64,000 nt of DNA from Streptomyces albireticuli (GTDB lineage: Bacteria; Actinomycetota; Actinomycetes; Streptomycetales; Streptomycetaceae): the NCBI RefSeq assembly GCF_002192455.1, contig NZ_CP021744.1, forward strand, positions 5,861,501 to 5,925,500, given 5' to 3'. Both the position numbers and the translations under genes were made by a program. The notes below the pieces were generated by a model. It saw only the letters and a program-made list of their open reading frames with translations, had not been told where the DNA came from and made no database searches. Shown here in pieces: positions 13,645 to 16,367 of this stretch. Numbering within the stretch: the first letter of the stretch is position 1; the number at the start of each line of letters is the position of its first letter.

Positions 13645-14532
13645 TCAGCGGAACGTGTCGCACCGCGCCACGTCGCCCGTGCGGAAACCGGTGCCGAACC
13701 ACTGCTGCCGCTGCGCGGCCGAGCCGTGCGTCCAGCTCTCCGGGGTGACACGGCCCTGGAACTTCTCCTGGATCCGGTCGTCGCCGACCGCCGCTGCGGC
13801 TGACAGCCCGTCGTCGATGTCGGCCTGCGTCAGCTCCTTGAGCAGCGGCCGGCCGGTGGACTTCTCCGGGGTCGTGGTGGCGTGCCGGGCCCAGACCCCG
13901 GCGTAGCAGTCGGCCTGGAGCTCGACCTTCACGGCGTTGCTGTCGGCGCCGGTGCGCCGGTCCTGGGAGCGGCCGAGCGTGCCCAGCAGGTTCTGGACGT
14001 GGTGCCCGTACTCGTGGGCGACGACGTACGCCTGTGCGAAGGGGCCGCCGCTCGCGCCGAACTTGCTCTTGAGCTCGTCGAAGAAGCCCAGGTCCAGATA
14101 GACCTTCCGGTCGGCCGGGCAGTAGAACGGCCCGACGGCCGAGGTGGCGGCGCCGCAGCCGGTGTTCACCCGCCCGGTGAAGAAGACCGTGGAGGCCGGG
14201 GTGTAGGCGCGGGAGCGGCGGGCGAACTCCTGGCTCCAGAACGACTGGGCGCTGTTGACCACGGCGACGATCCGGCAGTCCTCGCGGGTGTTGGCGTCCC
14301 GGCCGGTGCGGCAGTGCTGGGAGACCTGCGCGTCCGTGCTGGAGGTCGCCGCGGGGGCGGGCCCGGAGCTCAGCCCGAGCTCCTGCGGGCCGATCCCGAA
14401 GAACAGTCCGAGCACCAGTGCGACCAGGCCCACGATGCCGCCGCCGATGGTCACCCCGCCGCCCGGGATGCGGCTGCCCCGGGAGTCCTGCACCTGCGAG
14501 GTGTCCAGGTCCGCGTCGTCGTCGAACTGCAT
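13645..14532 (-). CDS. Membrane-anchored neutral zinc metallopeptidase (YpfJ family)
   Basis: This 295-residue protein has an acidic N-terminus, one hydrophobic anchor at about 28-47, and an extracytoplasmic domain with the zinc motif HEYGHH at 173-178. Family landmarks QSFWSQEF, FYCPADRKVYLDLGFF and LQADCYAGVW follow in order; the last supplies the third zinc ligand region. Four Cys residues could form disulphides outside the cell. Substrate unknown. Single-gene unit convergent with nothing; the VOC gene lies 43 bp downstream. Confidence 0.88.
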   Translation of the reverse strand: MQFDDDADLDTSQVQDSRGSRIPGGGVTIGGGIVGLVALVLGLFFGIGPQELGLSSGPAPAATSSTDAQVSQHCRTGRDANTREDCRIVAVVNSAQSFWSQEFARRSRAYTPASTVFFTGRVNTGCGAATSAVGPFYCPADRKVYLDLGFFDELKSKFGASGGPFAQAYVVAHEYGHHVQNLLGTLGRSQDRRTGADSNAVKVELQADCYAGVWARHATTTPEKSTGRPLLKELTQADIDDGLSAAAAVGDDRIQEKFQGRVTPESWTHGSAAQRQQWFGTGFRTGDVARCDTFR

Positions 14533-14611
14533 GCGGCCACCGCCCTTCCCACCCTGAGTATCGGGGAGCTCACTCCCCGCCGCCCCCGGAAATCGGCTTG
14601 CGCTCCACCGT

Positions 14612-14648
14612 TAGACTGGTCCCCATGGCATTCCTCCTCGTGCATTAG
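14612..14648 (+). promoter_or_regulatory. Promoter and leaderless 7-codon uORF before ABC-F gene
   Basis: A TAGACT -10 element (14612-14617) is followed by exactly seven bases and then ATG at 14625, the usual spacing for a leaderless start. The ATG opens the ORF MAFLLVH-stop (14625-14648). A hairpin (14675-14701) lies between it and the ABC-F start. This is the layout of a ribosome-mediated attenuator; function is inferred. Confidence 0.6.
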
Positions 14649-14674
14649 ACGGCGTCGGCCGGTCCCGCCCGCCG

Positions 14675-14701
14675 CCGCAGGCCCTGGCAGGGCCGCTGCG
14701 G
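14675..14701 (+). promoter_or_regulatory. Candidate attenuator hairpin
   Basis: CCGCAGGCCCT pairs with AGGGC-CG-CTGCGG, giving 6 + 5 bp around a 2-base bulge and a GGC loop. It starts 27 bases after the uORF stop and ends 67 bases before the ABC-F GTG. No T-run follows. Confidence 0.5.
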
Positions 14702-14768
14702 TGCGCCCGCGCGCGGCTGTGTTCATCACCCGTCCCCCTCGCCGTCCACCCGCCCAGGAGTAATTCCC

Positions 14769-16367
<1,599 letters not shown>

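Follow-up and report, generated by a model that had tools for sequence, protein, structure and literature searches.

The leader of the ABC-F gene in the window, the whole stretch of 64,000 nucleotides of Streptomyces albireticuli DNA that was analysed, is probably a translational attenuator in which a leaderless upstream open reading frame (uORF) is itself the strand that masks the ribosome-binding site (RBS) of the ABC-F gene. The case is built on conservation, leaderless spacing, the structure predicted for the RNA and the lack of any terminator, all of which were computed here, and the features are collected in Table 1. If true, an antibiotic-responsive switch would need no more than a leaderless start and seven codons and could do without a conserved arrest peptide; searches for conserved peptides or for uORFs led by a Shine-Dalgarno (SD) sequence would miss such a design. 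It would also provide a concrete cis-regulator for a ribosome-protection ABC-F that 172 of the 173 good-quality genomes in the class contain and whose orthologues of the OcrA type have been linked to tolerance of linezolid and chloramphenicol in mycobacteria.

Read directly from the letters, the TAGACT box is followed by GGTCCCC (7 nt) and by an ATG at 14625-14627, which opens ATG GCA TTC CTC CTC GTG CAT TAG, seven codons for MAFLLVH with the UAG at 14646-14648, all on the forward strand. From this stop to the GTG of the ABC-F gene there are 120 nt. Box, uORF and both distances had been reported in the first-pass annotation, and all of them were confirmed. The spacing places the likely transcription start at or beside A14625, and no match to a classical sigma-70 promoter (-35/-10) was found in the leader region 14530-14800. 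Upstream of the -10 box a near-invariant GGAAAA tract and a TTGC were observed (columns -24 to -11, n = 103), the columns kept in 103 Streptomyces being AAAA at -22 to -19 and TTGC at -14 to -11 counted from the first T of the box; the tract reads GGAAAT in the window and GGAAAA in most relatives. Their spacing matches no classical -35, and they may mark an activator site or a promoter of an unusual class. The uORF and its relatives are also rich in codons that are very rare among the window's genes (ATT, CTT, CAT, GCA), possibly reflecting slower translation or AU-rich RNA between helices.

Table 1. Features of the ABC-F leader, in positions of the window.
Feature	Position	Strand	Basis or remark
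Upstream promoter elements, A-rich tract and TTGC (about 14598-14602)	14587-14604	+	Column conservation
-10 box TAGACT, leaderless promoter	14612-14617	+	TANNNT in 103/103, 6 or 7 nt before ATG in all
Leaderless uORF, MAFLLVH-stop	14625-14648	+	Direct reading, conservation
P1 5' strand AUGG	14625-14628	+	Predicted pairing with CCGU 14767-14770
P2 5' strand CUCCU (Leu-Leu codons), anti-SD	14634-14638	+	Predicted pairing with AGGAG 14756-14760
P4 5' strand GACGGCG, first base the G of the UAG stop	14648-14654	+	Helix with 14740-14746
Variable P4 loop	14655-14739	+	Holds lineage-specific insertion; P4 arms kept on either side
P4 3' strand CGCCGUC	14740-14746	+	Predicted arm-pairing probability 0.87 in the window
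ABC-F SD AGGAG, P2 3' strand	14756-14760	+	GGAG invariant in 63-sequence alignment
P1 3' strand CCGU	14767-14770	+	Overlaps ABC-F start codon GTG (14769-14771), including its first two bases
ABC-F ATPase, 532 aa, SCO1840 / OcrA (Rv1473) type	14769-16367	+	NCBIfam ribo_prot_ABC_F above cut-off

The degenerate peptide pattern ATGGCNNTNNTNNTNGTNCAYTAG matched exactly once per genome in 35 of 150 Streptomyces genomes, its reversed-pattern control giving 0 matches, and a second pattern built on promoter spacing and anti-SD, TAGAMT-N6/7-ATGGCNNNTCTCC, matched once per genome in 46 of 61 genomes, again with 0 matches for the control; single matches together with empty controls argue against chance. 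The ABC-F itself was present in 149/150 Streptomyces genomes by protein search, with best matches mostly 87-96% identical. Among 103 distinct Streptomyces upstream regions, composed of regions located through the ABC-F gene, not through the uORF, and of pattern-derived ones, TANNNT-N6/7-ATG opened an ORF of 7-14 codons in 103/103, the sequences being related to one another and the counts therefore not independent. The commonest peptides were MAILLAH, MAILLVH, MAFLLVH and MANLLAD. The stop was TAG in 100, TAA in 3 and TGA in 0 of the 103, a preference that would be explained by the G of the stop being part of helix P4 in most species. Stop and ABC-F start were 55-67 nt apart in most relatives, and the full range tolerated was 55-130 nt. 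uORFs of 7, 8, 10, 13 and 14 codons occurred, examples being a TAG changed to GAG with an immediate TAA (L111/L112) and insertions of VRVRE, WVH and PTD. That lengthened uORFs for the most part keep their stop at the base of helix P4 (L063, L071, L073, L112, L155) argues for real translation, and the start, stop and frame kept through these changes give comparative support for a translated short uORF.

Single-sequence folds gave one common design of pairings P1 to P4. In P1, AUGG at the uORF start is paired with CC(G/A)U at the ABC-F start; it is nearly complete in most leaders, its base pairs are standard in 98-101 of 101, the CC directly 5' of the ABC-F start codon is nearly invariant, and a two-sided change from G4-C to A4-U was found in one case (L102). 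For P2, about 100 of the 101 minimum-energy folds have GGAG base-paired to the uORF, and P3 is formed by GUG or GCG with CGC. P4, counted as at least 5 pairs within stop to +8, was found in 99/101 leaders and its arms survive loop insertions of 30-70 nt. P1, P2 and P4 occurred in 94-100 of the 101 leaders. The predicted probability of the SD being paired with the uORF had a mean of 0.98 and exceeded 0.5 in 91/91 Streptomyces leaders, compared with 0.43 for shuffled uORFs and 0.68 for a shuffled middle, and in ten leaders with loop insertions, the window included, the P2 probability was 0.95-1.0. Native uORF/RBS pairs were also predicted to be more stable than swapped pairs. The downstream SD is accordingly predicted to be sequestered in the uninduced RNA, as in an attenuator of the ermC/cat type, the folds being thermodynamic and taking no account of the order of co-transcriptional folding or of ribosome movement. 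When the uORF was recoded synonymously, the predicted duplex weakened from -13.9 to -12.0 kcal/mol in Streptomyces, with no effect outside the genus; because this weakening is just moderate, selection for pairing is not proven by the codons alone.

RNAalifold on a MAFFT-based alignment (A1) returned no consensus because of the gappy loops, and per-sequence partition functions and base-pair tallies were therefore used. A bulged hairpin had been noted after the uORF in the first-pass annotation; it is present (about 14671-14703) but is not a conserved element, lying within an insertion of about 60 nt that is absent from most relatives, and the conserved helix is P4 instead. No intrinsic terminator was found in 14530-14800 and no U tract follows P4, and the leader thus lacks the hallmark of a transcription attenuator. 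Rfam 15 gave no family above its gathering score, the sole match being a chance-level miRNA elsewhere.

Most Streptomycetaceae genera sampled contain the mini-ORF and a few cases are without it, the peptides of the other genera being MAVLLTD, MAVLLTDPTD, MAVLLVQ, MAALLAH, MAVLSGH, MAVDPGH and MAVNLVH. The exceptions in the family have the SD paired with other letters or the uORF missing (L150, L167; L154 long; L157, L163, L164). Outside the family, 18 of 54 loci from 31 other families carried the strict leaderless motif, while the reverse strand of the same regions (54 loci) gave 0 matches; 17 of these 18 motifs, in 9 families, open an ORF of 10 codons or fewer, and the background share of such ORFs among all A/GTG in those regions is 28%. 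These mini-ORFs of 5-8 codons, in at least nine actinobacterial families, encode unrelated peptides such as MNSVAD, MHTPD, VLRCEP and MPSVRTP, short length and leaderless start persisting. In 38 leaders outside Streptomyces, with peptides largely unrelated, the pairing of SD and uORF still exceeded that of shuffles (one-sided p = 0.003). The mini-uORF was not found in seven mycobacterial-type (f4) genomes. A leaderless mini-ORF VLRCEP/VLRCEG before the ABC-F gene is common to two families (L173 of f20; L197 and L198 of f37), and in this branch the peptide may be conserved. The idea that Ala, Ser or Thr residues cause stalling on the outgroup peptides was dropped, such residues being expected by chance in 5-7 codons.

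The closest solved chain to the ABC-F is PoxtA. An HTH_58 gene and one for an enoyl-CoA hydratase follow on the 3' side, and the f4 orthologues, 62-67% identical, likewise have an enoyl-CoA hydratase gene and an HTH gene as neighbours, presumably in the arrangement Rv1472-Rv1473-Rv1473A. The identity to these orthologues and the gene neighbourhood together indicate that the ABC-F is orthologous to the OcrA (Rv1473) type. Its locus order matches that of S. coelicolor, SCO1839 (gbn), SCO1840 and SCO1841 through SCO1845, as given in PMC11272600. The name OcrA of Rv1473 refers to resistance to oxazolidinones and chloramphenicol (PMC9159947), MAB_2736c is similar to OcrA (PMC13041422), and ribosome protection against phenicols and oxazolidinones was reported for the mycobacterial orthologues (PMC9159947, PMC13041422). 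By analogy, the Streptomyces ABC-F may be a phenicol-oxazolidinone (PhO) protection factor. In the passages of PMC7157823 that were covered, WblC control of SCO1840 did not appear. Divergently upstream of the ABC-F gene there is a neutral zinc metallopeptidase gene (PF04228; 13645-14532, reverse strand), which is also near the ABC-F in several other families and is not in the printed S. coelicolor SCO1840-1845 order. A second ABC-F, 59-63% identical, was seen in some genomes of the family (G184, G195, G240, G255, G217 and others).

In the proposed mechanism, for which we infer the precise start of transcription, in vivo translation, induction, feedback and the range of drugs, transcription would begin with the A of the uORF's AUG, and ribosomes would load on this leaderless codon without an SD. 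With the uORF empty, its own letters would pair with the ABC-F RBS (CUCC:GGAG, and AUGG:CCGU at the start codon), and P4, beginning at the G of the uORF stop, would bring uORF and RBS together and keep ABC-F translation low. Wherever on the seven codons a ribosome is delayed, it would cover the P1-P3 strand and the 5' arm of P4 and expose the ABC-F RBS; no special peptide would be needed, since the strand is so short that it would be covered entirely whichever codon the ribosome occupies. The device would sense slow early elongation, caused for example by peptidyl-transferase-centre drugs, and would close again once the ABC-F counters the drug, so that an ABC-F of OcrA type, acting against phenicols and oxazolidinones, should close its own switch. 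The predicted geometry, with the anti-SD inside the uORF, permits such stall release, and the lack of a terminator, the masked RBS and the identity of anti-RBS strand and uORF make stall-released translation the best-supported model. Phenicols and oxazolidinones arrest best with Ala at the penultimate position (PMC8987054), and the near-invariant Ala-2 would suit such an arrest. More tentatively, and with some doubt on our side, the leader could represent an old peptide-independent stall sensor of actinomycetes, in which the codons of a leaderless mini-ORF are the anti-SD and which controls, and is reset by, a near-universal ABC-F, the Streptomycetaceae having been tuned to phenicols and oxazolidinones through Ala-2. 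Under that wider reading the anti-SD role would have been kept while peptide, stop codon and loop changed freely.

The first-pass annotation had proposed a uORF governed by antibiotic-stalled ribosomes and sensing the drug through a hydrophobic arrest peptide. The former part largely stands, as a conserved and probably translated leaderless uORF before a ribosome-protection-type ABC-F, together with the predicted RNA, makes control by stalling likely. The latter part, that MAFLLVH and its relatives stall with a macrolide, phenicol or similar drug by virtue of their amino acids, is unlikely. It does draw on a family motif, M-A-x-L-L-[VA]-[HD], and the peptide comparison suggested with it found conservation as a family within the Streptomycetaceae and not beyond. 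Codon 2 is coding-like, with Ala in 94/103 and a free wobble base, and Ala-2, which alone among the uORF residues looks constrained as an amino acid, agrees through the penultimate preference (PMC8987054) with the OcrA drug spectrum. Against this, codon 3 encodes F, I, T, N, S, C, L, V, P or H, its first two bases varying freely and its third being mostly T. Codon 4 (Leu-4) is CTC in 84/85, though CTG is commoner in the window's genes. Codon 6 is mainly V or A by a GTG/GCG alternation that is neutral for the RNA, position 17 being U or C opposite a G with pairing kept and the wobble G18 fixed, and codon 7 is mainly H or D. MPHLLVH, MDTDTPHIAH and MATLHVH are tolerated, and the peptides of other families are unrelated while RNA pairing persists. 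Conserved amino acids at a stall site, as expected of an arrest peptide, were thus not found, strong conservation within the family being confined to Ala-2 and Leu-4. As judged from alignments and predicted folds, the conserved features are the pairing with the RBS and the stop-proximal helix, while the peptide drifts.

It is likewise improbable that the uORF is constitutively translated and that terminating ribosomes open the RBS or reinitiate, giving a steady level of ABC-F with no drug signal. Such coupling would fit the stop fused to the helix base, the short and fairly constant distance from stop to start and an ABC-F that is housekeeping-like in being near-universal in the class, but distances up to 130 nt are tolerated and the ABC-F has its own conserved SD, which the uORF itself is predicted to sequester. 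Least credible, and very improbable, is a constraint on the 5' end of DNA or RNA alone, in which conservation concerns the promoter and a stable helix at the 5' end of the RNA, and the ORF is incidental. Much of the conservation is indeed at the nucleotide level; however, the uORFs that are lengthened in frame and whose stop stays at the base of the helix, the ATG in 103/103 Streptomyces and the short leaderless ORFs in unrelated families (17/18 against 28% expected) speak for an ORF.

Translational attenuation of ermC and cat relies on ribosomes that stall on a short uORF and so free the sequestered SD of a resistance gene, and the same release is proposed here. Those uORFs, however, carry an SD of their own; their ribosomes stall in response to the peptide or to a set codon, and the RBS is masked by separate hairpin arms. 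In the present leader, by contrast, a leaderless uORF supplies the anti-RBS strand from its own codons, and the gene it precedes is a core chromosomal one. The polycysteine leaderless short ORFs of mycobacteria, reportedly described by Canestrari in 2020 (cited in PMC9094748), are also leaderless actinobacterial attenuators, but they respond to cysteine through Cys codons and belong to other genes. The msrD leader and the leaders regulated by EttA depend on peptide-specific stalling and act at other levels of control, unlike the leaderless uORF here. They share with our model a possible feedback, since ABC-F proteins that act on ribosomes at leader ORFs can exert feedback on expression (PMC10314930, PMC11282234). 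For the orthologous type OcrA/Rv1473 and MAB_2736c (62-67% identity, neighbourhood), a -10 motif and a transcription start 170 nt upstream were reported for MAB_2736c (PMC9159947, PMC13041422), and the seven f4 genomes gave no mini-uORF. Other Streptomyces ABC-F genes have very short uORFs as well, namely the ARE5 leaders of tiaA (MVGDDDISG, SCO0636) and are5sc (MLV, SCO6720), on which LSAP drugs stall ribosomes at the start codon (PMC12421871). These differ in gene and ABC-F subfamily, in having uORFs with their own ribosome binding sites and in following a terminator/anti-terminator model (PMC12421871), transcription attenuation having been proposed for tiaA, are5sc and lmrC. The passages available from the sole paper found naming SCO1840 describe no uORF at that gene. 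The leader would thus work like ermC/cat attenuation, be leaderless like the polycysteine ORFs and stand apart from tiaA and are5sc.
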